From: Psychroflexus tropicus DSM 15496
GTDB taxonomy: Bacteria > Bacteroidota > Bacteroidia > Flavobacteriales > Flavobacteriaceae
Direction: 5' to 3'
DNA length: 64,000 nucleotides
Assembly (NCBI RefSeq): GCF_000378765.1
Contig: NZ_KB905342.1
Span: 62,001-126,000 of the forward strand
The position numbers and the translations under genes are program-made. Numbering within the stretch: position 1 is the first letter of the stretch; each line of letters starts with the position of its first letter. Below the pieces are notes generated by a model that saw nothing but the letters and a program-made list of their open reading frames with translations, made no database searches and was not told the DNA's origin. Positions 48,560-64,000 of the stretch are shown here, in pieces.

Positions 48560-49555
48560 CTAGGCAATATGAATTTCAAAAGGCATTTCGAACGTTTGAG
48601 GCTTATTGTTCGAATCTTTATTCTCTAAACGTTGAATAAGTAATTCTGCTGCCTTCTCACCAATTTTCATGGCTTTTTGATCGATGTAATTGATTCTAGG
48701 ATAGCTCAGTAAGGCATTTTTTTCATCTGAAAACCCAATGAGCATGATATCTTTCATCAGTTGTGGGCTTTCTGACTTGACTATGCTTTGAAACATCAAT
48801 GATGAGGTATTATCTGCAGAGATGACGGCATCAAATTCGTGTAAAGATATAAAGGTCTTGATCAAATCATGAGGATGTTGAGAACCCGTTAAGTTCAAAA
48901 CAAGTTCCGGGTCTGGTTCCAGCCCGTGTTCAATAAGCGCTTGTTGGTAACCTTCTTTACGAAGTTGACCGATGGAAAGGTCTTCAATATTACTTACAAA
49001 GGCAATATTAGTTTTTTGTTTGGATATCAAAATGCGAGTGGCATCGTAAATGGATTTTTGATCATTAATTACGACTTTATCACAATCGATTTCTGAAGTC
49101 GTTCTATCAAATAATACCAGTCCTTTTTTATTAAGATTGATTTGATCTAAATGTGAATATTCCTGTGTAGAGAGCGTTTCTGATGATAAAGAAATGATAA
49201 ATCCGTCAACACGACCCTGAAGCATCAATTCAACACTTTTAGCTTCTTTTTTAAGCTGTTCATGACTTACGCAAATAATGGTATCGTAACCTTTAGTTGT
49301 GGCATACTCTTCAATCCCATGCAATACTTTAGCAAAAAAAGAATTCAAAATATCGGGGACCACAACACCTATCGTATTAGTCTTATTTACTTTTAAAGCC
49401 AGAGCCGTTTTATTAGGCCTGTAATTGTATAGCTCTGCAGCTTCTTTGATACGCTTTTTGGTATCTTCTCCAATATCTTTAGCATCATGAAGAGCTTTGG
49501 AAACCGTAGAGACCGAAACATTGAGTTGCTTAGCAAGTTCTTTTAATGTAATCAT
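48560..49555 (-). CDS. LacI-family regulator of the beta-glucan locus
   Basis: A 331-residue LacI/GalR repressor. The N-terminal HTH is MITLKELAKQLNVSVSTVSKAL with hinge YRPNKTALAL; the periplasmic-binding-like effector domain starts at NTIGVVVPDI (about residue 62). It follows the last gene of the glucan cluster on the same strand and is its only visible regulator. LacI control together with a sugar symporter and a phosphorylase resembles the maltodextrin loci of flavobacteria; SusR or HTCS regulators are more usual for polysaccharide loci. The effector is probably a sugar or sugar phosphate from beta-glucan breakdown (inference). Confidence 0.92.
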   Translation of the reverse strand: MITLKELAKQLNVSVSTVSKALHDAKDIGEDTKKRIKEAAELYNYRPNKTALALKVNKTNTIGVVVPDILNSFFAKVLHGIEEYATTKGYDTIICVSHEQLKKEAKSVELMLQGRVDGFIISLSSETLSTQEYSHLDQINLNKKGLVLFDRTTSEIDCDKVVINDQKSIYDATRILISKQKTNIAFVSNIEDLSIGQLRKEGYQQALIEHGLEPDPELVLNLTGSQHPHDLIKTFISLHEFDAVISADNTSSLMFQSIVKSESPQLMKDIMLIGFSDEKNALLSYPRINYIDQKAMKIGEKAAELLIQRLENKDSNNKPQTFEMPFEIHIA

Positions 49556-49618: not shown

Positions 49619-50962
49619 TTATTCCTTGATTAATTTGATCGTTCTGGTTTGATCAAATTCATTAGAAATTTTGGCTAAATAAACACCACTTGATAAATCA
49701 TTAGCGTTGATTGATGCTTCAGAAGCGTTAACATTGACTTCTTTTACCAAACGTCCGGTAATGTTATAAACTTCAACCTTCTGAATGTTCTCAGAGGTTC
49801 TGATGTTCCAAACATCTTGAGTTGGGTTAGGGTAAGCTTTAAATTCTGCTTGACTAAATGAATCGTTGCTTAAAGTAGAATTCTGAGTTAAAAGAATATT
49901 GTCTATGTATACTGTTCCAGCATTATCGACACTTTGTTGAAATGGATCAACTTTCCATTGGAATAGAACTGTATCGTCAAAACCTAGATTAGTAAAATAA
50001 GACATTGGAATTTCAACTTTAGTCCATTCTCCTGATACTAAAGCTTCATTAGTTCCAATTTCATAATTAAATTCTTCAATAGCACCAGATTGATTGTCAA
50101 TTAAAACAAATCTAAATCCAGTTAATGTAGCATTATCTTCAGCCCAATAATCAAATGATACAAAATCATAAGCTGAAACATCATCTGGACCTCCTTCACC
50201 CTGACCATATCCACCAGCTCCAAAATTGAATTGATATGCAATATTTTCTGCTGCAGACTCATCTAAATCTGGCTGATTTACTAGACCTCCTCCAAAGTCA
50301 TAAGCGATAGGAAAAACCGTGCTGTAGCCGTTTGTATCGTTGTAAATACTATAAGTTTCTGCATCAGGAGCTGTTGGTACAGGGGCAGGTCCATCTGGTA
50401 CAGGAGTTACTGGAGCTTCTACAGAGATTCCTGATATATTATCCACATAAAACACCCTGTCATCTGGTGTTCCGAATCCATTTGTATTGGAATCCCAATT
50501 GTAATAGATTACAAAAGCACCATATTCACCGTCTGCAGTTGTAGTATTATCAAAACCATCATCAAATGTGAATGATAAAGTTTCCCAACCACTACCAGAA
50601 TGACTTGCGGAAGTAGTTGAATCTGGAGCACCATCAACACCAGCAACCACTTTCGGTGCTATTGTTATTGGTTCCAAAGAATATACATCCATTTCCATAC
50701 TTTTATCAGTGGTCAATTCCACCTGAATACCAGAGAAAAAGAAAATGTTGATACCTTGAAAAACTTGGCCTCCAGGATCTGAAGTCAATTCTGCTACTTG
50801 TCCTCTAGTTCCTCCTGTCTCAGGATCGGGAACAAGTGCTGCAGAAGCACCACCAAAAGGACCACCTAACCCATCTTCTTCAAAATCTTGAATAATCTCT
50901 TGTTGAGCAAATCCAAATGTCACCATTAGCAACATCATAAATAAAGTAGTAATTTTTGTCAT
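49619..50962 (-). CDS. T9SS-secreted protein with two jelly-roll (CBM-like) domains
   Basis: A 447-residue secreted protein. It has a signal peptide (MTKITTLFMMLLMVTFGFAQ), a first jelly-roll domain (about 22-185, IIQDFEEDG... VFYVDNISGI), a Pro/Ala linker (TPVPDGPAPVPTAPDA), a second jelly-roll (about 205-365, ending TVYIDNILLTQNS) and a type A T9SS sorting domain (about 373-447: FKAYPNPTQD ... GVYLAKI). No glycosidase motif is present, so it is probably a surface or released glucan-binding protein. ATG 50962 is chosen because it begins the signal peptide; 32 upstream in-frame residues are dismissed. A 221-base gap from the GH17 gene suggests its own promoter. Confidence 0.87.
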   Translation of the reverse strand: MTKITTLFMMLLMVTFGFAQQEIIQDFEEDGLGGPFGGASAALVPDPETGGTRGQVAELTSDPGGQVFQGINIFFFSGIQVELTTDKSMEMDVYSLEPITIAPKVVAGVDGAPDSTTSASHSGSGWETLSFTFDDGFDNTTTADGEYGAFVIYYNWDSNTNGFGTPDDRVFYVDNISGISVEAPVTPVPDGPAPVPTAPDAETYSIYNDTNGYSTVFPIAYDFGGGLVNQPDLDESAAENIAYQFNFGAGGYGQGEGGPDDVSAYDFVSFDYWAEDNATLTGFRFVLIDNQSGAIEEFNYEIGTNEALVSGEWTKVEIPMSYFTNLGFDDTVLFQWKVDPFQQSVDNAGTVYIDNILLTQNSTLSNDSFSQAEFKAYPNPTQDVWNIRTSENIQKVEVYNITGRLVKEVNVNASEASINANDLSSGVYLAKISNEFDQTRTIKLIKE

Positions 50963-51183
50963 AATATTAATTTTAAGGTTACAAATTTTAATTACTGATA
51001 AAAATAAATATAAATTTCTATTAATTTGACAAATAATACCAATACAAAAAACATACAAAAATGTAAAAGCAGATCTTAACTATTAATTTCGCTTTAAGAC
51101 GGAGAGTATCAATAAAATAAGGCCTGTGCAAAAAATAGTGTATGGGTGATGTATTGTTTGTTGAAATAACATATTACCAGTGT

Positions 51184-52104
51184 CTAGTATTTCAATTTTT
51201 CGTTTTTATCCCAAATTCCCCAATAAGCGCCAACAATACCTTCATCTCCAACCTTCCAGGATTCATCAAACGATGAAAAATAGAAACTTTCAATGCCTGC
51301 CTTTTTACACCAGTTTTGTGTATTAATAAAAAACTTTAAGAAATTCTCATCTGAAGGCTGGGCAGCTCCTAAATTTTCACCCTTACTCGGCCAGCCAGTT
51401 TCTGTAATAATTACTTTTTTACCATTAGCTGCACTGAGAGCTTGTCCATACATCTGCTGCATATGAGCTAGGGAGTAATCAATATGACAACTTTCCCAAA
51501 AGGGATAACAATTAGAAAGTATAACGTCGCATAATTCTGTAAGGTCGGGATGAACGGTAAATTCGTAATAGGCGTCAACATACCCAACTGGAATATGGTT
51601 TGGAACTTCAGTTCTTACCTCTCTTAAATGGTCTTTCAAGTCTTCTAAAGGAATGTCATCTCTATACAGTACTTCATTTCCTACTGCTGCAATATCTACC
51701 AGTCCTTTGTTGGCTAATTCAATAAGAGCGTTGAGTTCCTCTCTGTTCTTTTCAGGGTCATCTCCTATCCAGGCTCCAACAAGTGTTTTAATGCCTAGTT
51801 CTTTAGCCACTTTTGGTACAAATTCATTTCCTTCAATACAAGAAAAAGAACGCACCCATTTGATATGAGGTTTTAAGATGTTCAACCGTCTTCTTACTTG
51901 CTCTTCTGTGATATGATCTCCAGGTTCTTGTCCATCTTCATACATACTAAAGCAAATACCATGAATGCTCTCTTTAAGAATGGCATTAAGCATGGCTGCC
52001 AAATCTTCTTTACTAGCTTGTCCTGGGATAAAATCATGATGTTCCAGGGAGGCCAAGAAATCTTGTTGACGTTCAGTTAAAAGTTGTTCTTTTCTATAAG
52101 ACAT
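51184..52104 (-). CDS. Cytoplasmic GH17 beta-1,3-glucan hydrolase/transglycosidase
   Basis: A 306-residue GH17 enzyme without a signal peptide. The acid/base is Glu144 (AAVGNEVLYR) and the nucleophile Glu235 (IITETGWPS); FYFSSFDESWK completes the barrel's eighth strand. GH17 members cut beta-1,3-glucan with retention, and some transfer the glycosyl group to make new beta-1,3 or beta-1,6 bonds. It closely resembles the GH17 half of the symporter fusion just upstream, including the shared last nine residues (WDKNEKLKY), so they are duplicates. It should act on imported oligosaccharides in the cytoplasm. Confidence 0.88.
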   Translation of the reverse strand: MSYRKEQLLTERQQDFLASLEHHDFIPGQASKEDLAAMLNAILKESIHGICFSMYEDGQEPGDHITEEQVRRRLNILKPHIKWVRSFSCIEGNEFVPKVAKELGIKTLVGAWIGDDPEKNREELNALIELANKGLVDIAAVGNEVLYRDDIPLEDLKDHLREVRTEVPNHIPVGYVDAYYEFTVHPDLTELCDVILSNCYPFWESCHIDYSLAHMQQMYGQALSAANGKKVIITETGWPSKGENLGAAQPSDENFLKFFINTQNWCKKAGIESFYFSSFDESWKVGDEGIVGAYWGIWDKNEKLKY

Positions 52105-52113
52105 AGTAATTAG

Positions 52114-54609
52114 TTAATATTTTAATTTTTCATTTTTATCCCATAACCCCCAACGCTGCCCTACATCACCTTCATGATGAATTTTCCAGGACTCGTCGAA
52201 AGATGAAAAGTAGAATACATTTATATTTTCCTTATCAGCCCAATGATTCACATTGATGAAGTACTTCATGGCATTTGTTTTTGAGGGTTTGGCATCCTCT
52301 GTAGATTCGCCATCATTTGGCCATCCTGTTTCAGAAATGATCACTGGTTTTCCATCAGCTTGCTGAAGTACAAGATTATACATATAACGCAGATAAGCTG
52401 TAGCTACTTCAATATCTGCCCCTTCCCAGAACGGATAACAATTAATCAAGAGCAAATCGCAGGCTTTGATAAGTTCCGGATACTGATCAAAAATATAGTA
52501 GGAATCGATGTAGGTAACCGGTATATGAGAAGGAAGTTTTTCTTTGACGGTTTGAATGAAGGCTAGAACTTCAGCTTCTGATAATTCATTTCTCAAAAGA
52601 ACTTCATTTCCAACAACAGCAATATCCACCATACCTTCATTAGCTAGTTTAACTAAGTTGTTGACCTCTGCGTTGTTTTTAGACTTATCATTGCTAATCC
52701 AAGCTCCAACTACAGTCTTTAGGCCATACTGCTTTGCAATTTTTGGAATGTATTCATTTCCATTAGTACAGGAAAATGATCTCACCCATTTGGTATAGGG
52801 TTCTATGATTTTCATCCTTCTGCTTATCTGTTTTTCAGAAAGGACATCATTGAGATCTTGTCCCTCTTCATAAGGGCTAAAACAAATGCCATGCAAGCCT
52901 TTGTTTAAATAGGATTTAAACAATTTCGAAATATCATGATTAGATTTAGTTGAAAAATCTAAATCGTATTTCAAGTCAGGTTTAAGACCTAAAGATGCCA
53001 TTGGGAAGGACGCCTGGCCCAAATATCCACTTGAAGATAAAACTTTTGGTTTTACTTTTCTTCGTTCTAGTTCTTTGCCAATCTCACGGACTCGATCCTC
53101 GTCTAATTTATATCCCCACATCACCATAAAAGCTAAAGCGGCTGTTCCAGCAGGAACAATAATATCGGCGATTCTCAGATTATTCATAGTCTCTAACGTC
53201 TGTATTGGGGCATCTGGATTAAAGCCAACAATGCTTAAAATCACACCTCCCAAAACCAAAGCGATAGATTGACCGATTTTTACCATCAACCAGTAAATAG
53301 CTCCAAAAGTCCCTTCTTTCCTAGGCAATCCATTTTCAAGTTCATCCAAATCACAAACATCTGCAGTCATAGACATCATCAATGTGAATAAACCACCCAT
53401 ACCAAAGGCAAACAATGGAATAGGAACGAAGATGAGCCAGGGTACTCCATCCTCTATATTAATGGTAAACCAGGAGGCTCCTATGCTATCCAAATATGGA
53501 TTTAGAAAATTAAACACCTTCCCAAGACCAGCAGTTAAGGATTCACCAAGGGCTGTCTCGTTAAATTTTGCATTTAATTCTAAATCAAACCCCCACCACT
53601 TCAATACATAACCAACAATCGATAAAAAAGTGGATAACAAAAAGGCCTTACGCTTACCGATTTTAGTAGCAATTTTTGAGATTATCGGTATGACAATGAA
53701 GGCTGTAATAATAGCGTTTATAGTATTGAACCAGGCAGGCCAAGTTCCTGCGGTATCATAACTACCATTGTACATGTAAAAGACAATGATGAAGACACCA
53801 AAGGCCGCCACCAATTGAAATCCATTAAATACTAAAAATGTAGCCCCGCAAAGTTTCATGAAAGGCTTGTTTTTGGAGACCTGAACAATACCTTGGTATA
53901 ATTTTTTTAGATTTTTTGCTAAGGCTTTGAAACTGATACGTTCCCTGTTCTCCATATTCCCAGCATCCATTCCTTTGCAGAACAAGGCTGGTAATACTCC
54001 AAAAAGAATGGTCATTGCTCCTACTATAAGCGCCATCGTCCGGACACCTTCTTGTTTAGTGTTAAACGTTTCAGCGTCTGGAATAATCACATACAACCAG
54101 GGTACGATCATCCATGCGATTTGACCCATTGTATTGGAAAAAGCCATCAATCGGGTACGCTCGTGATAGTCTGGGGTCATTTCATAACCCAAACCAACTA
54201 AAGGAGTTGCAAACATGGTATTACCGATCAAAAATAAAAGTTGAAGGACCATGACATGCCAGATGATATAAGTCTGAGAAGCATTATCATCGAGTTGCCA
54301 CATCAAGAAGAATAGTATACCACTTAGAATAGAGCCAAAGAAAATATAAGGCCGTCGTCTCCCATATTTGGATTTTGTATTATCGGTAATAAATCCCATG
54401 ATGGGATCCGTAAAGGCGTCAAATATTCTCGGTAATCCGCCTAATAAACCAGCCCATAAAGGATCAACTCCCCAGGCCGTAAGTAAAAAAAACTGAATAA
54501 AAACGCCAAGTGTACCTGGCAATACATTTAAAATAAAATGTCCTGCACCAAAGGCCGCTTTTTGACCTACTGGTACTTTATCTTTTTCTGGAGTTTTAAT
54601 ATCAGCCAT
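52114..54609 (-). CDS. GPH-family sugar:cation symporter fused to a GH17 domain
   Basis: An 831-residue two-domain protein in one uninterrupted frame. Residues 1 to about 505 form a 12-helix GPH (MelB-type) symporter with DAFTDPIMGFITDNTKSKY and GRRRPY in the first cytoplasmic loop and a second-half MFS repeat. A ~45-residue soluble linker follows (ERRKVKPKVLSSSGYLGQ). Residues about 550-831 form a GH17 domain with acid/base Glu669 (VGNEVLLR) and nucleophile Glu760 (ISETGWPND). GPH proteins have both ends in the cytoplasm, so the glycosidase should face inward. The gene sits between GH30 (10-base gap) and the stand-alone GH17 (9-base gap). It probably imports beta-1,3-gluco-oligosaccharides and processes them at the exit of the carrier. 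Confidence 0.9.
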   Translation of the reverse strand: MADIKTPEKDKVPVGQKAAFGAGHFILNVLPGTLGVFIQFFLLTAWGVDPLWAGLLGGLPRIFDAFTDPIMGFITDNTKSKYGRRRPYIFFGSILSGILFFLMWQLDDNASQTYIIWHVMVLQLLFLIGNTMFATPLVGLGYEMTPDYHERTRLMAFSNTMGQIAWMIVPWLYVIIPDAETFNTKQEGVRTMALIVGAMTILFGVLPALFCKGMDAGNMENRERISFKALAKNLKKLYQGIVQVSKNKPFMKLCGATFLVFNGFQLVAAFGVFIIVFYMYNGSYDTAGTWPAWFNTINAIITAFIVIPIISKIATKIGKRKAFLLSTFLSIVGYVLKWWGFDLELNAKFNETALGESLTAGLGKVFNFLNPYLDSIGASWFTINIEDGVPWLIFVPIPLFAFGMGGLFTLMMSMTADVCDLDELENGLPRKEGTFGAIYWLMVKIGQSIALVLGGVILSIVGFNPDAPIQTLETMNNLRIADIIVPAGTAALAFMVMWGYKLDEDRVREIGKELERRKVKPKVLSSSGYLGQASFPMASLGLKPDLKYDLDFSTKSNHDISKLFKSYLNKGLHGICFSPYEEGQDLNDVLSEKQISRRMKIIEPYTKWVRSFSCTNGNEYIPKIAKQYGLKTVVGAWISNDKSKNNAEVNNLVKLANEGMVDIAVVGNEVLLRNELSEAEVLAFIQTVKEKLPSHIPVTYIDSYYIFDQYPELIKACDLLLINCYPFWEGADIEVATAYLRYMYNLVLQQADGKPVIISETGWPNDGESTEDAKPSKTNAMKYFINVNHWADKENINVFYFSSFDESWKIHHEGDVGQRWGLWDKNEKLKY

Positions 54610-54619
54610 ACATATTCAG

Positions 54620-56122
54620 TTATTTAGCTATAGTGATGGTTTGAATAGCCTGTGGATTTATAGATATCTGCTGAGATGTTTCTTCGATATCCAACTCAAA
54701 AACCTTTTCAGTTTCCGATGGGTTAAAAACAATCAACACATGACTTCCGTCTGGATTGGTAGCGGCACTCACCTGTAACTCCTCATCAGTAGAGTTGAAA
54801 TCTATACGTTTCGCTCCAGGTCTGATAAACTTACTAAAGTGAGCCATAGTATAATAAATAGGCGTATAATAAACCTCATCTGCTTCTGGATCTACAATGA
54901 CAGGGGCTACACACCAGTTTTCGAACCAGTTGGGCCCTCCTTGCCTGTTTAATACCATATTCCAGTCGACCCAACCATCGACCCAGTTATTCATACAGCC
55001 GATTATATCTCTGGCATATCGGTATACAGGACGGTATTTTGGATGCAGGTGTTTCTGGTCTTCTGGAGCCCAGTCCCAGCCCCAGTCTGTAGCTTCTTTT
55101 TGCCAATACCAGTCGTCATCTTTCCATTTTGGCACCTCAGCATCAACACAGGCTTCTGTTTGGATTAAGTATTTATCGGGTGCTTTTTCATGAGCGTATT
55201 GAAGAGCTTCTTCGTAAACTTTAAAGGTGCTTTCGTACCAGTGGATGGCGGTACCATCATAATACTTGGCATTGGCCTCATTCTTATACATTTCGTCCAC
55301 CCATTCCTTGATGCCTCCTCGATTTTGGTCGTATCCTAAAATTTTTAAGTCTCCTTTTCCATCCTTTTCTAATTGTGGGCCGAGATGCTCTCTTACAAAA
55401 TCGGTCATTTGCTCTGGAGTATAGTGCATACTTTCCCAGTTATTGCCATTACCATGAGGTTCATTTTCAACGGTAAAGCCCCAAATATCAATTCCTTCTT
55501 TTGAGTAAGCTTCTGCATACTTAGAAAAGAAAAAAGCCCATGTATCATAATACTCTGGCTTCAGTTCACCGCCTACCCAATCATTGTTGGTTTTCATCCA
55601 GGGTGGGGCTGTCCATGGTGAAGCAATAATATTGAAACCTTCTGAAGAAGCCTGCATTGCGTCTTTGATCATAGGAATAATATCATCTTTATCTTCCTCT
55701 ATACTAAAATTTTTCAAAAGCGTATCTCCTTCCACCGGGGCATAGGAATATTGACCAAGTGAGAAATCACTTGAATTCATATGTGTCCTGGTTAAAGAAT
55801 ATCGTGCTCCAGCATCAGAAAAATAAGCCTCGATAACCTCTTTTCGTTTCTCTGGGCTTAACTGATTCAGTAAATAAGCTGAAGCCTCTGTAAAAGATCC
55901 GCCAAAACCCGTAAACGTTTGAAAAGTTTTCTTTGGGTTAAGTATGATTTTAGATGTAGATTCCTTTTGACTAAAACTATCTACCTTAGTCAATTGATTT
56001 CCACTTCTGGACGTTTCAAAAACATCGATTTGAGTTTCAGCAGTGGTCTGCTTTTGAGCGCAAGAGCTAATGATCATAAGTAGTATCAAATTTGCGATTA
56101 TCAGTTTCATAGGCTGTTTCAT
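54620..56122 (-). CDS. GH30 glucosidase/glucanase lipoprotein
   Basis: A 500-residue GH30 enzyme with a lipoprotein signal peptide (LLMIISSCAQ, Cys21). The acid/base is Glu221 (TVENEPHGNG) and the nucleophile Glu323 (LIQTEACVDAE); TGFGGSFTEASA and SPWTAPPWMK are family marks. A beta-sandwich follows at the C-terminus. In laminarin loci of marine Bacteroidota, GH30 enzymes remove beta-1,6-linked glucose branches, and I infer that role here; the subfamily was not determined. It is anchored to a membrane, facing the periplasm or the cell surface. It lies 23 bases after the GH17 lipoprotein gene. Confidence 0.92.
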   Translation of the reverse strand: MKQPMKLIIANLILLMIISSCAQKQTTAETQIDVFETSRSGNQLTKVDSFSQKESTSKIILNPKKTFQTFTGFGGSFTEASAYLLNQLSPEKRKEVIEAYFSDAGARYSLTRTHMNSSDFSLGQYSYAPVEGDTLLKNFSIEEDKDDIIPMIKDAMQASSEGFNIIASPWTAPPWMKTNNDWVGGELKPEYYDTWAFFFSKYAEAYSKEGIDIWGFTVENEPHGNGNNWESMHYTPEQMTDFVREHLGPQLEKDGKGDLKILGYDQNRGGIKEWVDEMYKNEANAKYYDGTAIHWYESTFKVYEEALQYAHEKAPDKYLIQTEACVDAEVPKWKDDDWYWQKEATDWGWDWAPEDQKHLHPKYRPVYRYARDIIGCMNNWVDGWVDWNMVLNRQGGPNWFENWCVAPVIVDPEADEVYYTPIYYTMAHFSKFIRPGAKRIDFNSTDEELQVSAATNPDGSHVLIVFNPSETEKVFELDIEETSQQISINPQAIQTITIAK

Positions 56123-56145: not shown

Positions 56146-57429
56146 CTAATGATTAAGCGTAATCTCTTTTTTAACGGGTGGCATATCCACATCTAATAGA
56201 AGGTCATTAAGTTTTCCGTCATAGGTTTTTTTAATGCTTTTCTTTCCACGTTTTAATCCTTTGAAGGTTCCTTCGTTTACCTCATCCCAAAGTGCGTATT
56301 TGGCTTGACCATCTACAGTGAAAAGGCCGAAAAAATTCTCGGAGCCGTTTGGGTATTGAGCATCTTTCCAAGGCTCATCAAAAGCTTCAAAATAGAAGCA
56401 TTTGATCTTATTTTCTGTAGCCCATTCTCTCATTTTATGATAATAAAGTGCCTGCTTATATTCGTCTGTAGCTTTAGAGCCCTTAGGACCATAATGACGG
56501 TCTGAAAAACTAGCCCATCCGGTTTCACCAATATGAATAGGTTTTTCTACATCTAAAGACTTCACGTAACTCGCCACACTATCATATTGCGAAATAGCGT
56601 ATCCTAAGGCACGATTCATAGCTTTATCAATTTTTACAGTATTGCTTAACTCTTGCTCTTTATGGAGCACTCCCCAGAAAATCGGATTGTAATGCGTATC
56701 GTGCATAGGATAAGTATGAATAGACAGGTAGTCTACACTTTTCACCAATTCTTCTAGTTCTGGTGTATGATATTCATGCTCTCCTCCTCCCCATGATGCA
56801 AAATTATCGGAACTGGTGATCCATAAATCTTTATTCAATTTACCTTCTTTTTTAAGCTCCTGAAGGTGCTTCACCCACTTTAAAATAATATGAGGCTGAA
56901 CGTAATATGCCGTAGCCCATTTCACCATAGCTTCATTACCAACCGCGATGATTTTCACGATATCAGGATATTTGTTCGCCAGCTCTACAGCACGGCTAAT
57001 TTCTGAAGCGTTGTATTCACTTTCTTCATTGTGGTTTAAAGGAAGTTCGGTCCACGCATTTTTACAATCGATCCACACTCCAAGCATCACATACATTTCA
57101 AATTCTGGATCTTCTTCTTTAAGCTGTTTTATCGATTCCAAAACGTTTGCGGCATGTGGTAGACGAACATTATAGGTTCTTAAGATCTTAATATTTATAG
57201 CCTGCAATATTTTTAAATCTTGTTTCAATTGGCTTACCGTGGGTTGCACATTTCGAGTATTTTCTCTATATCCACCGTAAGATATGGCGAGGTAATCTGG
57301 CTTCTTAAGGATTTCCTCTGCAGTTAAATTGCGTTTATTTTGCATAGATTTTTTCTCTTTTTGAGATGGTTCACATGAAGCCAATAAGGCAAGGCTTAGA
57401 AGTAGAATACTTTGGATTATCAGCTTCAT
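56146..57429 (-). CDS. GH17 lipoprotein
   Basis: A 427-residue GH17-like enzyme with a lipoprotein signal peptide (LALLASCEP, Cys19). The acid/base is Glu166 (IAVGNEAMVK) and the nucleophile Glu302 (HIGETGWASF); YLAISYGGYRE begins the barrel and CFYFEAFDEPWKD closes it. It is much diverged from the two cytoplasmic GH17 copies, with longer loops and a basic C-terminal extension. It most likely cuts beta-1,3-glucan oligosaccharides in the periplasm or on the surface; transglycosylation is also possible. It begins 6 bases after the phosphorylase stop codon. Confidence 0.88.
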   Translation of the reverse strand: MKLIIQSILLLSLALLASCEPSQKEKKSMQNKRNLTAEEILKKPDYLAISYGGYRENTRNVQPTVSQLKQDLKILQAINIKILRTYNVRLPHAANVLESIKQLKEEDPEFEMYVMLGVWIDCKNAWTELPLNHNEESEYNASEISRAVELANKYPDIVKIIAVGNEAMVKWATAYYVQPHIILKWVKHLQELKKEGKLNKDLWITSSDNFASWGGGEHEYHTPELEELVKSVDYLSIHTYPMHDTHYNPIFWGVLHKEQELSNTVKIDKAMNRALGYAISQYDSVASYVKSLDVEKPIHIGETGWASFSDRHYGPKGSKATDEYKQALYYHKMREWATENKIKCFYFEAFDEPWKDAQYPNGSENFFGLFTVDGQAKYALWDEVNEGTFKGLKRGKKSIKKTYDGKLNDLLLDVDMPPVKKEITLNH

Positions 57430-57435
57430 ATGATT

Positions 57436-60400
57436 TTATTTTAAAATGGAATTTTCTATGGAAACTTGGATACGTTTAATTTTCCCAGATCTTTTAAACA
57501 CCTCCTTGCTTATTGAGTCAGGCAATTGAAGGCCTTCAAACAGTTGTTGATCAGTATCCTTAAAAATAACTTCAATCTGGCTGTGATCTGATTTGTTATA
57601 GATAATAGGAACCTGACAGAAGGTAAAACCTAGGCTGTCTTTTTCCAACTCTAGCTGTTGTTTTTGATTATCTAAATCTACGAATCTAAACACCTGAGTT
57701 TTATCTAAAAATTCCAAACGCCTTAACAGATGTGGTTGAAACTCTAATTTTCCTTCTTTGATAAAAACTCCTAATTCACCAAATCGACTCAGGATGTCTT
57801 CTTTAACTTGTCCAGTCATCCCTGGTTGCTGAGCACCCTTACCTAATGGCGTATGCGAATAGGGGTCGGTTGGAAATGCTCCATAAAGTTTTGGGGATTT
57901 ATGAACACCAATACCTTCATTGATTTCATAATAATGCTCGAGCAAGCGGCCTAAAGTTTCATCAGATACATCTTCTTCAATAGCTTTTAAACAAGTTTCT
58001 AAGACAGCTAATTGTAGCTTGGATACCATATGCCAATAGATCGATCCTAAACCTTCATAACCGTAAAAGGTGCCAGAACGTCCAGTAAACGATTTATGAT
58101 TGAAGACCTCTTCGTAGACTTTAAGCACAAGACTCTTTTCTTTTTTTGCTAAAATAGAATAGGGTTCATCTTCTAAAGCCTCTAAAGCCTCACTAAGTTT
58201 TTTCGCGTTGTTGAATTTTGCATTAAAATGATACTGGCCTTCCACATCTTTTTCGATGATACCCGTTCGTCCAGCTTTGACCAATTCTGTGAGTAACTTT
58301 GAACTTTTTACCGAAGCCTCAGGGACATGATTTCTCTCCAGGAATCCTTTCAATTCTTTATTAGGATACAGCAAATAACTATATTGATCGGACCTAAACA
58401 ATTCACTGTTTTTTAAAGCATCAAGCGTGCTTAACGCTTGCTCTGAATTTAAATATCCTGAGCTTAAAACAGCCACCTGCCCTTCGAGCATTTCAGAAAG
58501 GTAATCTATAGATACTTTATCATCATCTAAAGTCATCAAATTGTAAGCATGGTATAAATTGTCCGTACGCTTATTGGCGTCGATGGCTTGTTCTAAATAA
58601 GGCAAGCTGCAATCGATAAACTGGTTGATATCCTGAGCAGAAACTGTAGACTTTATTCCAGAAAATCCACCAGTATATACTTGAGTTCTAAAAGTACTAG
58701 CTGCTTCACCTAATTGATCTAAAATCTCTTTACGTTGATGATCACTAAAACTCGACTTAACTAAGTGTTGATGAGCTTCGAAAGTTTTATTGATCTTATG
58801 AAACAGCTCAACAAGTTCTTCTGAAATTTCATAAGTTTCTGATGCATCTATATCCTTGAAAATAGACTTAAAAAAAGACAGGAATCGTCTTAAGTAAGAT
58901 AAGGTTACCATGGACACGCCATTCCCTACCAAAGCATTGTTGGCATCATTCCATTCTGGACGTTGCGTATTCATCCAGATACCAGCCTCAGGGATAAAAT
59001 TAGAAAGCTTTGCCAAGGTTGTTGCTAAAATCTTTTCGATAAAGTTGACGTGAAGAATTTCACCAGATTTTGAGAAAAGCAGTGCACCGTCGGCTCCAAT
59101 TTCTTTTCTTTTCTTTCGAATTTCAGCATCAGCCTCATGATCAAAGTCGATGGTGTCCTTAGGATCATCTAGGATGTCTTGATAAGGCTTGATTTTGTAA
59201 GGAACATTAGCGTAAACAAATTCTGACTTATGAAATAGTTTTGATAAACTATTGGGTTTGTAATCCTCACAAAATTCTAAAAACTTTAGCAAGTAGATAA
59301 TTTGGTGATCACCCCAGTAACCGATATAAGACCAGGGATCGTCTGGTTCTATGGTTTCCCAATCGAACCCGTCTTTAGTGACACGATAAGGATTATAACC
59401 ATCAAAAGTGGTAGCATTTAAAAATTTATAGATCATACTCTCTATAAACTCCGGGTAAGAGTGAGCTAAACTTTCCCAGTTTTGAAAAATATCACGCCAA
59501 TTACCTTCATAATCTAAAATCTTAGACCCATCATCGTCTTTGGTATTGATAGAAAATTGATTCCAAGGTCGGCTAGGGTCCCCGTGTCTACGGCTAAATT
59601 TCAGAGGTAAATATTCTAGAGACAATCTTGTAAAATCATCATTGTTGATGGTCAAACAGAGTTCTTGAAGCTTAAAAAGTGTAAAAACTTCTGGTAAGGC
59701 ATCAATTTTTGAAGAGACCTTTTTAAAAAGTGAAGTATTTGCTTTCTTGATGTATTTTTTGAAATCCCAGCATTCAATTTGATAGTTATCATCGAAAATA
59801 CCTCCCCGCATGATATTAAACATCGCATTGGAGTAATGCCGGATATCCCTTAAATTATCATTTGTACGTTGAAGACCATCTGCTGCACCTACAAAACGTT
59901 TTAGTTTTTCGGTTCCCTGCTTGATATCTTCCTGGATCAAATTAAGAACCTTCTTGTCTTTGATCTGATGTTGAAGTTTCACAACGGCTGATTGGTTATA
60001 ATTGACATCAGCTATAATATGCCATGTTTTAGTCTCTTCAGCATCCAGTTGAAGCTGAGTATTGATAAAATAGGCTCCTTTTTCGGCTTTGATATCTTCC
60101 TCCTGACTGATGGGTTTACCGCTTCTAAAGTTTTCTAATTGTAAAGAAGATAGCAAATAGGTAGGGTTTTCGAATCCCAAAGACCAAACCACGTTGGCTT
60201 TGAGTGCCTCGCTTGGCTCTGCCTTATCTACAGGAACAGCACTAAGCGCAAAAATACCAAGGCCATGTGGTTTATCGAGCTCGCTTCTTTTATATGCATC
60301 TACCAAGTTGCTACTTTGTGTTTGCAAATCACTAACGACTCCTGCAGGAAGTACGTTTTGAAGCCCATCCAGCATTTCAACATTCAGCTTAGTATCGTTT

Positions 60401-60876
60401 AGGTTATGGAGTTGAGCTTCTTTGACAAAACCAAACTGATCGCTGGTAGACCAGCGGTAAGTGAATTTAAGGTTCAGAGAATGATTAACTTCTTCAAAAA
60501 TCAGTTTATCTCCATAGATATTTTTGTAAAGGTTTCTTGTAATTTGATACTGTTCTACAAACCGATTAGAGAAAGGTTCCCAGTAATGAATATTGTCTGT
60601 AGAATGCACTTTAAATATAGTCTTACTTCCTGTATAGTGTGCAGACTCAGTTATCTTATCATCTGTATAATAAGGAAATAAAGTAAATTCAGCATTTCTT
60701 CTACCTGCTGTTAAGCCGCCGTTGCTAGAAATAAACATCCAGTGATTAGAATCACTGACGATGCTCATAAAAAAAGGCCTCATCGCATCATTATTGGTGA
60801 TTTTTAAAAATTTTTCACCATTGATTTTCATTATTTCTAATTGTTCCTCTGCTGAACTTTTAGTCGTATTAATCAT
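57436..60876 (-). CDS. Beta-1,3-glucan phosphorylase-like protein (GH149 type)
   Basis: An 1146-residue cytoplasmic protein without a signal peptide. The N-terminus (about 30-300) is a beta-sandwich like that of GH94 enzymes (GGLTAGRRNAEFTLFPYYTDD). The long central alpha/alpha barrel contains RHGDPSRPWNQF, GYNPYRVTKDGFDWE, DPWSYIGYWGDHQ and EWNDANNALVGNGVSM. Asp644 in WND matches the catalytic acid of GH94 phosphorylases by position in the motif. Size and context fit GH149 (or the related GH161), which split beta-1,3-oligoglucosides with phosphate to glucose-1-phosphate. It lies between surface proteins and the GH17 lipoprotein in the operon. Confidence 0.8.
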   Translation of the reverse strand: MINTTKSSAEEQLEIMKINGEKFLKITNNDAMRPFFMSIVSDSNHWMFISSNGGLTAGRRNAEFTLFPYYTDDKITESAHYTGSKTIFKVHSTDNIHYWEPFSNRFVEQYQITRNLYKNIYGDKLIFEEVNHSLNLKFTYRWSTSDQFGFVKEAQLHNLNDTKLNVEMLDGLQNVLPAGVVSDLQTQSSNLVDAYKRSELDKPHGLGIFALSAVPVDKAEPSEALKANVVWSLGFENPTYLLSSLQLENFRSGKPISQEEDIKAEKGAYFINTQLQLDAEETKTWHIIADVNYNQSAVVKLQHQIKDKKVLNLIQEDIKQGTEKLKRFVGAADGLQRTNDNLRDIRHYSNAMFNIMRGGIFDDNYQIECWDFKKYIKKANTSLFKKVSSKIDALPEVFTLFKLQELCLTINNDDFTRLSLEYLPLKFSRRHGDPSRPWNQFSINTKDDDGSKILDYEGNWRDIFQNWESLAHSYPEFIESMIYKFLNATTFDGYNPYRVTKDGFDWETIEPDDPWSYIGYWGDHQIIYLLKFLEFCEDYKPNSLSKLFHKSEFVYANVPYKIKPYQDILDDPKDTIDFDHEADAEIRKKRKEIGADGALLFSKSGEILHVNFIEKILATTLAKLSNFIPEAGIWMNTQRPEWNDANNALVGNGVSMVTLSYLRRFLSFFKSIFKDIDASETYEISEELVELFHKINKTFEAHQHLVKSSFSDHQRKEILDQLGEAASTFRTQVYTGGFSGIKSTVSAQDINQFIDCSLPYLEQAIDANKRTDNLYHAYNLMTLDDDKVSIDYLSEMLEGQVAVLSSGYLNSEQALSTLDALKNSELFRSDQYSYLLYPNKELKGFLERNHVPEASVKSSKLLTELVKAGRTGIIEKDVEGQYHFNAKFNNAKKLSEALEALEDEPYSILAKKEKSLVLKVYEEVFNHKSFTGRSGTFYGYEGLGSIYWHMVSKLQLAVLETCLKAIEEDVSDETLGRLLEHYYEINEGIGVHKSPKLYGAFPTDPYSHTPLGKGAQQPGMTGQVKEDILSRFGELGVFIKEGKLEFQPHLLRRLEFLDKTQVFRFVDLDNQKQQLELEKDSLGFTFCQVPIIYNKSDHSQIEVIFKDTDQQLFEGLQLPDSISKEVFKRSGKIKRIQVSIENSILK

Positions 60877-60946: not shown

Positions 60947-61711
60947 TTATAGTAATTCTAGAGACACATTATCGATTCTTACCAGACCGGCATCTCCATT
61001 AGAGTCAAATAGAACTCTGGCATCTGGGGCACCAAATTCCTGCGAACTTAAAGTCAATTCAAATACCTGAGGAGTATCGGTTAAATTGACGGTTCGTACA
61101 TCATTGGAAAAATCCCCTCCGCTAAGACCGATCCCAGCAATCAATGTTCTATTGGTATCGGACCAAGCTTCAAAAGTAAGGATATAAGTTTCTCCCTGAG
61201 TAATCGGTAATTTCTGACTTAGATTCACCAAAAAAGGTTGGTTAGGATCTGGATTGGTAATGTTGACCTGATAAAATGAATTTCCATTTTCGGTCACCAC
61301 TGGTGCTGGGGCATTATCATTCACCCCTACAATCCATCCTTCTGAACCATTTTCAAAATCACCATTGGTGATCAAGATAAGTTCCACTTCCACATCGGCC
61401 TGAAATGTATCGGTTTGTCCATTAGCATTAGTTGCGGTAAGAGTCACGGTATAAGTTCCGTCTTCTTCATAGGTATAAGTCGGATTTTGATCTGATGATA
61501 ACGATACGCCCATGTCACCAAAGTCCCATTGAAAAGAAGAGGCTTCAGTAGACAAGTTGGTAAAGGTGACTGTTCTATTATCGATATCAGAAATAAACCT
61601 GGCTTCGAAACCCACAAAGTCAATTCCGCTATCGTTGTCTTCACAGGACAGTTGGATAAAAGAAAAGACTATAGCTACTATGATAAAAAAAACTGATTTA
61701 AGTAGTTTCAT
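60947..61711 (-). CDS. PKD-CBM lipoprotein (surface glycan-binding)
   Basis: A 254-residue lipoprotein (FSFIQLSCEDN, Cys23). A PKD domain (about 33-107) shows FTNLSTEASSFQWDFGD and PTYTYEEDGTYTVTLTATN. A CBM4-like jelly-roll follows (about 112-254): NGDFENGSEGW, then GETYILTFEAWSDTNRT and a final VRIDNVSLELL. CBM4 modules often bind beta-1,3-glucan. It has no catalytic motif and probably acts as a surface glycan-binding protein next to the GH16 enzyme, 15 bases downstream of that gene. A 70-base gap then separates it from the phosphorylase gene. Confidence 0.88.
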   Translation of the reverse strand: MKLLKSVFFIIVAIVFSFIQLSCEDNDSGIDFVGFEARFISDIDNRTVTFTNLSTEASSFQWDFGDMGVSLSSDQNPTYTYEEDGTYTVTLTATNANGQTDTFQADVEVELILITNGDFENGSEGWIVGVNDNAPAPVVTENGNSFYQVNITNPDPNQPFLVNLSQKLPITQGETYILTFEAWSDTNRTLIAGIGLSGGDFSNDVRTVNLTDTPQVFELTLSSQEFGAPDARVLFDSNGDAGLVRIDNVSLELL

Positions 61712-61726
61712 TTTAATGCGTTTTAG

Positions 61727-62587
61727 TTATTCGTAAACTCTTACATAATCTACAATCATCCTCTGTGGAAATTCAGTTTCTGGGGTAGGATTCCCCGGTA
61801 GATTCCCTCCTATAGCCACGTTTAGGATGATGTAAAAAGGTCTGTCGTTAAACACCCATTCACCTTCACCATCGGTTTCTTCGTCGACATCTTCAGGAGT
61901 TAGAGAGTGGTATAATACGTCATCCACATAATAATTGACACGGTTTGGCGACCATTCGATTCCGAAGACATGAAAATCTTCGTCAAACCTGTCATTTTCT
62001 AAACTAAAATCTTTGGAAATAGATTCTGCTCCGGAAAAATTTGGACCATGAAGGGTTCCAAATACAGTTGTTGGCTCATCACCCAGGTATTCCATGATAT
62101 CGATTTCACCAACAGCAGGCCACTCTTCCAGTACTTGTTCGCCATCTACATTGATAGTTTTAGGTACACCTAGTAGCCAAAATGCCGGCCAGTAACCTTT
62201 GCCAAAAGGCAACTTAATGCGAGCTTCGAAGCGTCCGTACTCCTTTTCAAACAAGCCTTGAGTGGTTAACCTTGCAGAGGTATAGTTATTTCCCTGAAAA
62301 GTTTCCTGTCTTGCTGTGATGACTAAAACCCCGTTTTCCACTTTGGCATTTTCTGGTCTATCGGTATAAAACTGAAGTTCGTTATTACCCCACCCAGGTA
62401 TGCCTTGCTCTGTACCGTCTCCTATATCAAATTTCCAGTTTTCTGGATTTGGGGCACCATCTTGATCAAATTCATCAGACCAGACCAGGTTATTTTTGGT
62501 AACTACTTCTTGAGTTTCGTCGAGATCACAACTGAAAAAACTTAAGGTAAGTAAACCTAATATCAGCTTATATTTTACTTTTTTCAT
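61727..62587 (-). CDS. GH16 laminarinase lipoprotein
   Basis: A 286-residue GH16 endo-beta-1,3-glucanase-type lipoprotein (LLTLSFFSCDL, Cys20). The catalytic motif is EIDIMEYLG with nucleophile Glu161 and acid/base Glu166, the laminarinase form. NNELQFYTDR, GRFEARIKLPFGKGYWPAFWLL and ILNVAIGGNLPG are further GH16_3-like marks. There is no extra module. It should start laminarin breakdown on the outside of the outer membrane. It follows the glycan-binding lipoprotein by 16 bases. Confidence 0.95.
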   Translation of the reverse strand: MKKVKYKLILGLLTLSFFSCDLDETQEVVTKNNLVWSDEFDQDGAPNPENWKFDIGDGTEQGIPGWGNNELQFYTDRPENAKVENGVLVITARQETFQGNNYTSARLTTQGLFEKEYGRFEARIKLPFGKGYWPAFWLLGVPKTINVDGEQVLEEWPAVGEIDIMEYLGDEPTTVFGTLHGPNFSGAESISKDFSLENDRFDEDFHVFGIEWSPNRVNYYVDDVLYHSLTPEDVDEETDGEGEWVFNDRPFYIILNVAIGGNLPGNPTPETEFPQRMIVDYVRVYE

Positions 62588-62603: not shown

Positions 62604-64000
62604 TTACTCTGTATAGAAATAAATATTATCTAAAAAAATAGTCGAGATTGTTGGATTATTGGCTCCGACCTCAGAATTAAAAAGCAATAGTCCTATGCGA
62701 TTTCTATCTGTTAAGCCGGAAAAATCTGAAAGAGGAATATCAAAACTAGCCCAATCATCAGACACTAAATCATCTGTTGTTATAGTGAATGAGCCAACAG
62801 TTTCAGTTGCTCCATAGTTGGTCAATTCTAGTTTTATTTGATCACCAGGCTGTAACTCCTCTTGAACATTAATATCAAGATGCAAGTGGGTTAATCCAGT
62901 TGCATTTACAGGTTGTACAGCTTCTGCAGGAAATGTCACATCATTAAACACAATACCAACAAAGTTTAAATCTGTATACCGAATAATTGATTCGGGACCA
63001 ACTTGTACCACACCTCCTAAAGTGGTTTGAAATGGTTCAAAGAAAGAATTATATCTTGAAACAGGTATATCATCATAAGCATCACTAAATAGAGAAACTA
63101 CATCTTCTGCAGGTCTTGTAGGACCTGGGGCAAAGTTAAAGCCCCCATCAACGTTTAGTGTCAAAGATCCCGCTGCCACATCGTTTCCAATACTTGCAGT
63201 TATTTCTACTTCACCAATACCAACTACAGACACAAGGCCAGTTTCATTTATAGTGGCAACTTCTGAGTTTGAAGTTTCAAAATTAAAATAAGAAGGGGAA
63301 GCTAACACAGTAATATCTTCGCCAGACTCTGAATTGACTGTTTGAGTTAATCCCGACAGTTGAAAAGGAACCTCCAAAAAACCCTCTTGTGTTATATCAT
63401 CCCCGTCAAGAATTGCTGGTCTATATTGACCAAGCGTTCCCAAGCTTTCAAATTTAATTTCATCAATCCAAATCGTAAAGCCAACACCACCAGTACTTTC
63501 TGAACCAGTAATAAATGAAAATAATCCGCTTTCCTGGGTGAGTTTGGAAGGATCTGGTATAGGAATTATAATTTTTCTCCATTGAGTAGACAATGGCACT
63601 CCAAATCGTTTAGTTGCAAATCTCTCTCCTGTAAAAGTAGTTCCAAATCCTACTTCATCAAATACTGCAGTTCGAGAAGCTTTAATCCAAAAGGTTAACG
63701 CATCATATCCAGAAAGGTCTCTTCCTTCGCCTCGATCTGAAAAAACACCTCCAACAAAACCACCGTCTGGGTCATTTGGAGCTGGTATATCTAAACGAAT
63801 TGAAGATGATCCTAAATAAGCTTCAGTATCGTCTGTATCAAAAGCTTCGGGATTATACCCTTCAGCAGGATTGAAGGATTCAAAAAATTGATCAGTAAGC
63901 CCAACCGGGTTATCTGTATACACTTCTGCTGTATTAGGAAAAGTGGCTAAAACAGCATCATCAGACACTTCTCTTTCGCAACTTATAGCGACCATTGCAA
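62604..64000 (-). CDS. Surface glycan-binding lipoprotein (5' end outside window)
   Basis: At least 464 residues; the frame continues beyond the right edge, so the signal peptide is cut, but AISCEREV at the start is a lipobox and lipidated Cys. A jelly-roll domain (about 25-180) contains VFSDRGEGRDLSGYDALTFWIKA and FTIWIDEIKFE. A Big_2/Ig-like domain (about 215-283) has NSEVATINETGLVSVVGIGEVEITAS. A second jelly-roll (about 310-463) ends in TISTIFLDNIYFYTE. Proteins of this build follow susD in laminarin loci and act as SusE-like glycan-binding proteins. susC and susD are expected just outside the window. Confidence 0.82.
   Translation of the reverse strand, partial: AMVAISCEREVSDDAVLATFPNTAEVYTDNPVGLTDQFFESFNPAEGYNPEAFDTDDTEAYLGSSSIRLDIPAPNDPDGGFVGGVFSDRGEGRDLSGYDALTFWIKASRTAVFDEVGFGTTFTGERFATKRFGVPLSTQWRKIIIPIPDPSKLTQESGLFSFITGSESTGGVGFTIWIDEIKFESLGTLGQYRPAILDGDDITQEGFLEVPFQLSGLTQTVNSESGEDITVLASPSYFNFETSNSEVATINETGLVSVVGIGEVEITASIGNDVAAGSLTLNVDGGFNFAPGPTRPAEDVVSLFSDAYDDIPVSRYNSFFEPFQTTLGGVVQVGPESIIRYTDLNFVGIVFNDVTFPAEAVQPVNATGLTHLHLDINVQEELQPGDQIKLELTNYGATETVGSFTITTDDLVSDDWASFDIPLSDFSGLTDRNRIGLLLFNSEVGANNPTISTIFLDNIYFYTE

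Follow-up and report, generated by a model that had tools for sequence, protein, structure and literature searches.

Fusions of a sugar carrier to a glycoside hydrolase of family GH17 were described by Unfried et al. 2018 (PMC6246565), who present FORMB_24740 of Formosa sp. Hel1_33_131 as a 12-helix carrier of the major facilitator superfamily (MFS) joined to the enzyme FbGH17B. According to that account, FbGH17B is active on debranched laminarin only, with kinetics given, and converts oligosaccharides to glucose; the MFS-GH17 fusion is common among marine Flavobacteriia by BLAST; and hydrolysis and uptake are proposed to be possibly coupled, with no test of physical coupling reported in the passages on the fusion (PMC6246565). 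The Formosa account is repeated in a paper on MlGH17B, a free-standing GH17 of Muricauda lutaonensis that is a beta-1,3-glucanosyltransglycosylase (PMC11005184) and whose separate MFS neighbour appears in PMC13188888. Our search of the open-licence literature, a search with subscription papers mostly outside its reach, returned nothing on such fusions that goes beyond Unfried et al. 2018. Here we analyze a window of 64,000 nucleotides from Psychroflexus tropicus DSM 15496 (contig NZ_KB905342.1, positions 62,001 to 126,000), which holds a gene for an 831-residue protein of this kind, a GPH-type symporter followed in frame by a GH17 domain. A preliminary description of the window knew of no characterised example, and the 2018 report supplies one. 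The fusion as such is a published kind, and the window member is a variant of it with a different carrier.

Like FORMB_24740, the window protein has an N-terminal 12-helix MFS carrier and a C-terminal GH17 domain in one frame within a laminarin polysaccharide utilization locus. By locus tag, FORMB_24740 follows directly on GH17A and GH30, and the window arrangement is alike. The acceptor-site tyrosine is replaced in both enzymes, by Met in FbGH17B and by Leu in the window, and the window GH17 resembles the FbGH17B kind in lying within a clade of fused domains with a non-Tyr acceptor residue, in a tree that does not hold FbGH17B by name. The carriers presumably differ: that of the window belongs to what we call type I, and that of Formosa would be type II, as are the other 34 sampled fusions. 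We treat the window protein as a variant since its carrier is not of the type found in most fusions and the published description mentions no carrier type. MlGH17B, compared here through the free GH17 proteins of Muricauda/Flagellimonas loci rather than through its own sequence, corresponds to the free GH17 at 51184-52104 of the window, occurs in the same type of laminarin locus and is predicted to be cytoplasmic; unlike the fused domain it stands alone, has Tyr136 and is a transglycosylase that makes beta-1,6 links (PMC11005184). The GH17-GT2 fusions of Proteobacteria (Glt1, Glt3 and Glt7) likewise join a GH17 to another module and act on beta-1,3-glucan, but there the partner is a glycosyltransferase and the GH17 is N-terminal (PMC11005184).

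The architecture, the active-site residues, the two carrier types and the paralogy of fused and free GH17 domains can be read from the sequences. Together with the topology, substrate, cation coupling, direction of transport, benefit and carrier exchange that we infer, they make the window protein probably a cation-coupled importer of laminari-oligosaccharides whose C-terminus carries a tethered cytoplasmic beta-1,3-glucanase of the exo type, the GH17 module having been inherited and the carriers exchanged. The proposed exchange of carriers under the GH17 domain, which we did not find described in the open-licence literature search, is new to this work, together with the pairing of fusions with a free GH17 and the difference between fused and free domains at the acceptor Tyr.

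Translation of both strands places the gene on the minus strand, where 831 codons run from an ATG without interruption, and finds the plus strand full of stops. The preliminary description had given the uninterrupted frame, which stands as one gene, without a strand. Pfam MFS_2 matches residues 20-504 of the fusion protein with 201.7 bits against a cut-off of 27, and NCBIfam TIGR00792 reaches 181.5 bits on the carrier, under its own cut-off of 231. The Pfam GH17 match covers residues 756-831 (47.7 bits, cut-off 28.2), the remaining barrel being too divergent for Pfam. Residues 594-813 align by sequence with the GH17 transferase RmBgt17A (PDB 4wtp/4wtr; E 5e-31 and 3e-30), and chains of the same enzyme are the best fold match of this half, with template-modelling (TM) scores of 0.87-0.88. 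The two catalytic glutamates lie exactly where the preliminary description had put them, Glu669 in the motif NEV and Glu760 in ETGWP, and both are invariant in 152/152 aligned GH17 domains. An AlphaFold2 model computed from an alignment of 113 proteins, taken from the window and the fetched loci (44 fusions, 35 separate carriers and 34 free GH17 proteins) has a mean predicted local distance difference test (pLDDT) score of 89.5, and contains 12 long transmembrane-type helices, a further helix at 504-518, a disordered stretch at 519-531 and the GH17 barrel.

Chance or misassembly as the origin of the fused frame is excluded, because the same fusion recurs in nine Psychroflexus-type relatives: seven named genomes (six of Psychroflexus and Flavobacteriaceae bacterium 14752) and two further genomes of the genus of the window. 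The nearest named relatives belong to Psychroflexus, the protein of P. montanilacus being 91% identical in the carrier and 79% in the GH17 domain. The same two-domain order is also found more widely in Bacteroidota, where the preliminary description had suggested looking for it, such that homologues are not always two genes and a missing stop codon does not account for the fusion. Among 397 sampled genomes of the family, 114 have a match to the window GH17 at E <= 1e-20, at least 26 of them in a frame of at least 780 amino acids. In a sample of 395 genomes of the phylum, 43 have a GH17 match at E <= 1e-10, some of them distant matches only, and 15 of the 43 lie in a frame of at least 780 amino acids; four genomes, that of the window included, are counted in both totals of fused frames. 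The phylum sample also has fused forms in three additional families (f8, f24 and f43). Analysis of open reading frames (ORFs) at 46 named loci finds 7 fusions, 34 loci with carrier and GH17 as separate neighbours, 3 with a separate carrier lacking such an adjoining GH17, and 2 cut by a contig end. Most of these loci had first seemed to be fusions by query coverage (1-831), a reading that we rejected, as the coverage had joined neighbouring genes. Three genomes that appeared to hold other carrier-enzyme fusions were rejected as well: in G410 the carrier ORF, of the GPH type, ends at 470 amino acids and is followed by a separate ORF, and G420 and G491 have separate neighbouring genes. No other carrier-enzyme fusion was found among these three genomes, no systematic search for such fusions having been made.

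The closest known carriers are MelB, the GPH family and MFSD2A. By fold, the carrier half matches MelB with TM scores of 0.83-0.86 over the four best MelB chains and of 0.67 and 0.78 over two others. In the residue correspondence that we computed, MelB D55, D59, T121 and K377 are retained as D64, D68, T131 and K444 in 79/79 carriers of one alignment (A1; 98 distinct carriers in all). In MelB, D55, D59 and T121 belong to the cation site, and Asp19 and Asp124 to the sugar site. The window carrier shares with MelB the fold and the aspartate pair of the cation site, and differs from it in having Asn28 and Ala134 at the places of Asp19 and Asp124 and in bearing an enzyme. Cation-coupled sugar transport is predicted for the carrier. 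The MFS_2 match, the 12 helices, the fold and the retained aspartates all agree with the GPH/MelB-type symporter of the preliminary description.

With helix borders taken from the model, 25 Lys and Arg residues fall in the predicted inner loops (residues 499-520 included) and 2 in the outer loops. Because of this bias and the MelB-like fold, topology rules would place both termini inside and the GH17 domain in the cytoplasm, the side on which the preliminary description had put the C-terminus. We consider a periplasmic GH17 domain that supplies the carrier with already cleaved sugar very improbable. Such a reading could be drawn from the Formosa paper, which describes cleavage and transport as simultaneous and does not plainly state the side in the passages concerned (PMC6246565). 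The 12 helices with N- and C-termini inside and the 25 versus 2 positive charges argue against it, as do two further features: between transmembrane helix 12 and the GH17 domain neither sequence nor model has another long helix, except for the 15-residue and highly charged 504-518, and the adjoining free paralogue has, by eye, no signal peptide.

Two types can be told apart among the fused carriers, with about 40% identity between them. Type I comprises the window carrier and those of the nine relatives, which are 65-91% identical to it. All ten have a loop between transmembrane helices 9 and 10 that is about 44 residues longer than in type II, and carry L27/N28/A134/N159 where MelB has K18, D19, D124 and R149. 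Type II comprises the other 34 fused rows, 36-41% identical to the window carrier, with N27/Q28, mostly S134, and Q159. In the carrier tree, 49/59 type I rows are unfused and 34/38 type II rows are fused, in an uneven sample: one scan for exact matches to short window-protein peptides supplied most type I rows, and other loci were hand-picked from match lists. Carriers cut by a contig end or of at most 430 amino acids, and GH17 ORFs of at most 250, were excluded; removal of duplicate rows reduced the carriers from 102 to 98 and the GH17 domains from 156 to 152, and the tests were run without long-branch rows (L157_S1 among carriers, L157_S1 and L159_S1 among GH17 domains).

A single clade of all 44 fused carriers is rejected by the approximately unbiased test (p-AU 9e-66). 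The same test also rejects a single clade for the fused carriers of type I, ten in number and picked as a group once the tree had been seen (p-AU 4.5e-9). The ten fused type I loci come from two type I branches, the fused carrier of L101 grouping with an unfused one (support 100). The GH17 tree has a different shape. There, 44 of the 45 fused domains form one side of a branch that separates them from 106 others, with a support of 98 without the long rows L157_S1 and L159_S1 and of 78 with them. These 44 domains are 43 fusions and L136_S1, which is cut by a contig end and is probably a fusion. The ten type I fusions are themselves a clade (support 99) nested among type II fusions, and a fused set of 38 rows has a support of 97. 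Because the fused GH17 domains form one clade while the fused carriers do not, the simplest account of the trees would be that the GH17 module was retained and the carrier in front of it replaced, at least twice.

No swap would be needed if type I and type II carriers had each acquired, in separate fusion events, a GH17 paralogue that once stood free between a carrier and a second GH17. We regard this as unlikely, even though loss of one stop between neighbours would suffice for each fusion and one case may be of this sort: the GH17 domain of L146_F groups with free ones, which suggests that a free-type domain was fused separately there, with a single origin including it not rejected (p-AU 0.136). 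Independent fusions fit poorly with the finding that 0/107 free GH17 domains lie inside the fused clade, the one apparent case being the contig-cut L136_S1. In two genomes (L137 and L139), a type I carrier adjoins a type II carrier; both are unfused, with a free GH17 after each, an arrangement that is a possible setting for carrier exchange.

A free GH17 lies directly downstream of 41/44 distinct fusions, the exceptions being L143 (contig edge), L146 (the odd fusion) and L121. The MlGH17B paper supplied 16 active-site positions for comparison, seven of which (F264 to W283) we located by assuming a constant offset; further subsite residues of that paper, such as Pro50, Phe76, Trp101 and Tyr168, are outside the set. 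At 14 of the 16 positions, the residue is invariant in all 152 domains, fused and free alike. The Ser275 position is variable in both fused and free domains. The position of acceptor Tyr136 is occupied by Leu, Met or His in 38/45 fused domains (37/44 without L136_S1; Leu672 in the window) and by Tyr in 94/107 free ones. A Tyr-to-Ala mutant of RmBgt17A abolished transfer, and FbGH17B has Met at this place (PMC11005184). Because this Tyr is lost in most fused domains and kept in most free ones, the most likely split would be that the tethered copy hydrolyses and the free copy transfers. Hydrolysis or transfer on beta-1,3-glucan by the window GH17 itself is predicted by analogy with relatives, and the transglycosylation that the preliminary description had offered beside cleavage becomes less likely with Leu672.

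A glucanosyltransferase that works with GH149 on a glucan store can be likened to MalQ and MalP. If the fused GH17 were mainly such an enzyme, it would turn imported short oligosaccharides into longer or branched cytosolic beta-glucan, as a store or buffer for GH149. This we find rather hard to credit. The best fold match of the GH17 half is the transferase RmBgt17A, the free relative MlGH17B is a transglycosylase, and 152/152 domains keep Trp728 and Glu729, which correspond to residues that RmBgt17A requires for transfer (PMC11005184). However, Leu672 replaces the very Tyr whose Ala mutant ended transfer in that enzyme (PMC11005184), FbGH17B, fused and with Met there, gave glucose (PMC6246565), and known GH149 enzymes, which take oligosaccharides down to glucose, need no lengthened substrate. 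The last point also weakens a MalQ/MalP-like need for transfer before phosphorolysis.

The fused domains that keep Tyr are those of L119, L121-L124, L146 and L147; all but that of L146 form one clade (support 99), and these six may preserve the state before the loss of Tyr. Fused domains also differ from free ones at residues 811, 812 and 819, which are mostly His/Arg, His and Arg/Ser in place of Gly, Ala/Asp and Tyr, and which adjoin the conserved Glu813 and Trp820 near the active site.

If the window protein is an importer with a tethered exo-glucanase, periplasmic or surface GH17A, GH16 and GH30 would make short unbranched pieces of beta-1,3-glucan, which the carrier would move across the inner membrane in symport with Na+ or H+. 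On arrival, these pieces would be hydrolysed by the tethered GH17, and GH149 phosphorylase and the free GH17 would process the remainder in the cytosol. The fused enzyme would be a specialised paralogue of the free one, with the catalytic machinery kept and the acceptor Tyr lost, hydrolysing where the free copy transfers. More tentatively, the GH17 domain might be an inheritable "receiving enzyme" moved between carriers, the pump having been swapped at least twice within Psychroflexus-type bacteria, and duplication might have been followed by specialisation of the tethered copy as a gate hydrolase and of the free copy as a transglycosylase.

Several points weigh against these proposals. The pathway does not need the fusion, as 34 of the 46 named loci have separate neighbouring genes, and the tethered hydrolase adds no essential step, because known GH149 enzymes already reach glucose. 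Transport and cleavage by the window protein are predictions from its sequence. The split between fused hydrolases and free transferases is not strict, since 7 fused domains keep Tyr and 13 free ones have Leu in its place. Carrier exchange is drawn from trees built quickly on about 310 and 540 columns, with a type I group tested after being seen and with weaker nodes (90 and 88) above the ten-row type I clade of the GH17 tree. Finally, carrier and GH17 are each well modelled by AlphaFold2, but their mutual placement is unfixed in the model (predicted TM score 0.65), where pLDDT falls below 50 in the linker at 519-531; what the model and the frame establish is the tethering of GH17 to the carrier, the position at the inner mouth of the carrier that the preliminary description had proposed not being fixed by the model.

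This last point bears on whether the two halves cooperate so as to couple uptake to cleavage, as the preliminary description had supposed. The fusion may simply fix a 1:1 ratio of carrier to enzyme and anchor the GH17 domain at the inner membrane, with the halves acting independently and diffusion doing the rest. We lean only slightly away from this explanation, which is favoured by the long and partly disordered linker, by the unfixed domain placement, by the frequency of unfused neighbours and by the two carrier types that serve the same module. The stretch aligned with residues 505-569, most of the linker, is 61-71 amino acids long in 43/44 fusions and 97 in L146. The exceptional length in L146 fits simple tethering, but the near-constant length elsewhere and the distinct fused paralogue hint at more than anchoring.

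Laminarin ranks among the largest pools of sugar in the sea, and in a pump that carries its own enzyme nature offers a simple test of whether substrate is channelled across a membrane. The existence of two carrier types for one enzyme module, of unfused relatives and of a paired free paralogue provides natural comparisons that make channelling testable. If carriers have indeed been swapped, one could examine, in the natural carrier-swapped fusions, whether a tethered enzyme makes uptake faster whichever carrier is present.

The features of the locus are collected in the table below. All neighbours listed, from the glycan-binding protein to the LacI-family regulator, are on the same strand as the fusion gene. 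With GH149, GH30, two more GH17 genes and GH16, the cluster is a beta-1,3-glucan (laminarin) locus, which agrees with the uptake of beta-1,3-gluco-oligosaccharides supposed in the preliminary description. It resembles known laminarin loci of marine flavobacteria, such as variant B of PMC6298971 and those of PMC13188888. Among the window and the named genomes, GH149 is present in 33/33 loci with at least 8 kb upstream of the carrier. The lipoprotein-like GH17 would, by its position in the locus, correspond to the endo-laminarinases FbGH17A and MlGH17A, and the LacI-family protein is perhaps the regulator of the cluster.

Table. Features of the fusion gene and its neighbours, in window coordinates.
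Feature	Position	Strand	Basis or remark
Fusion gene, 831 amino acids: GPH symporter, linker, GH17	52114..54609	-	ORF, Pfam, AlphaFold2
Carrier half, residues 1-498; 12 transmembrane helices, type I GPH carrier, long loop between helices 9 and 10	53116..54609	-	
Linker (predicted cytoplasmic), residues 499-556; helix 504-518, disordered 519-531	52942..53115	-	
GH17 domain, residues 557-831	52117..52941	-	
Glu669 codon, acid/base	52603..52605	-	invariant 152/152
Glu760 codon, nucleophile	52330..52332	-	invariant 152/152
Leu672 codon, at place of acceptor-subsite Tyr136 of MlGH17B	52594..52596	-	
LacI-family regulator	48560..49555	-	
Secreted protein with type IX secretion C-terminal signal	49619..51058	-	
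Free-standing GH17, acceptor Tyr kept; paralogue	51184..52104	-	no signal peptide by eye; 47-51% identity to fused domain
GH30	54620..56122	-	N-terminus lipoprotein-signal-like by eye
GH17, lipoprotein-like N-terminus	56146..57429	-	by eye; Pfam GH17 26.9 bits (cut-off 28.2), 28.3 bits in genome search
GH149 beta-1,3-glucan phosphorylase	57436..60876	-	NF058639 1822 bits (cut-off 1150)
Small lipoprotein-like protein, PKD-like stretch	60947..61711	-	by eye
GH16	61727..62587	-	N-terminus lipoprotein-signal-like by eye
Putative surface glycan-binding protein; start beyond window end	62604..64000	-	Big_2, sub-cut-off CBM11 match

Beside the cluster, in contig positions 124000-138000, no SusC or SusD was recognised by Pfam on four of the six ORFs of at least 150 amino acids, the other two being unscanned. 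The four scanned ORFs encode the glycan-binding protein, a 1056-residue protein, a hybrid regulator (Reg_prop, Y_Y_Y and a weak GerE match) and a Sugar_tr MFS transporter. The 1056-residue protein belongs to the same gene run on the minus strand, just past the right end of the window (contig 126061-129231; locus L162:2062-5232). It has an N-terminal signal by eye, no Pfam match at 1e-3 (best Glyco_hydro_cc, 0.023), a part resembling a TIM-barrel glycosidase, and about 450 residues of long paired strands like those of an outer-membrane barrel. It would be a second enzyme-transporter fusion, if the barrel suggested by this strand pattern is real (the AlphaFold2 model is poor, pLDDT 48.8). At E <= 1e-30, this protein is found in 57 of 249 genomes of the family.

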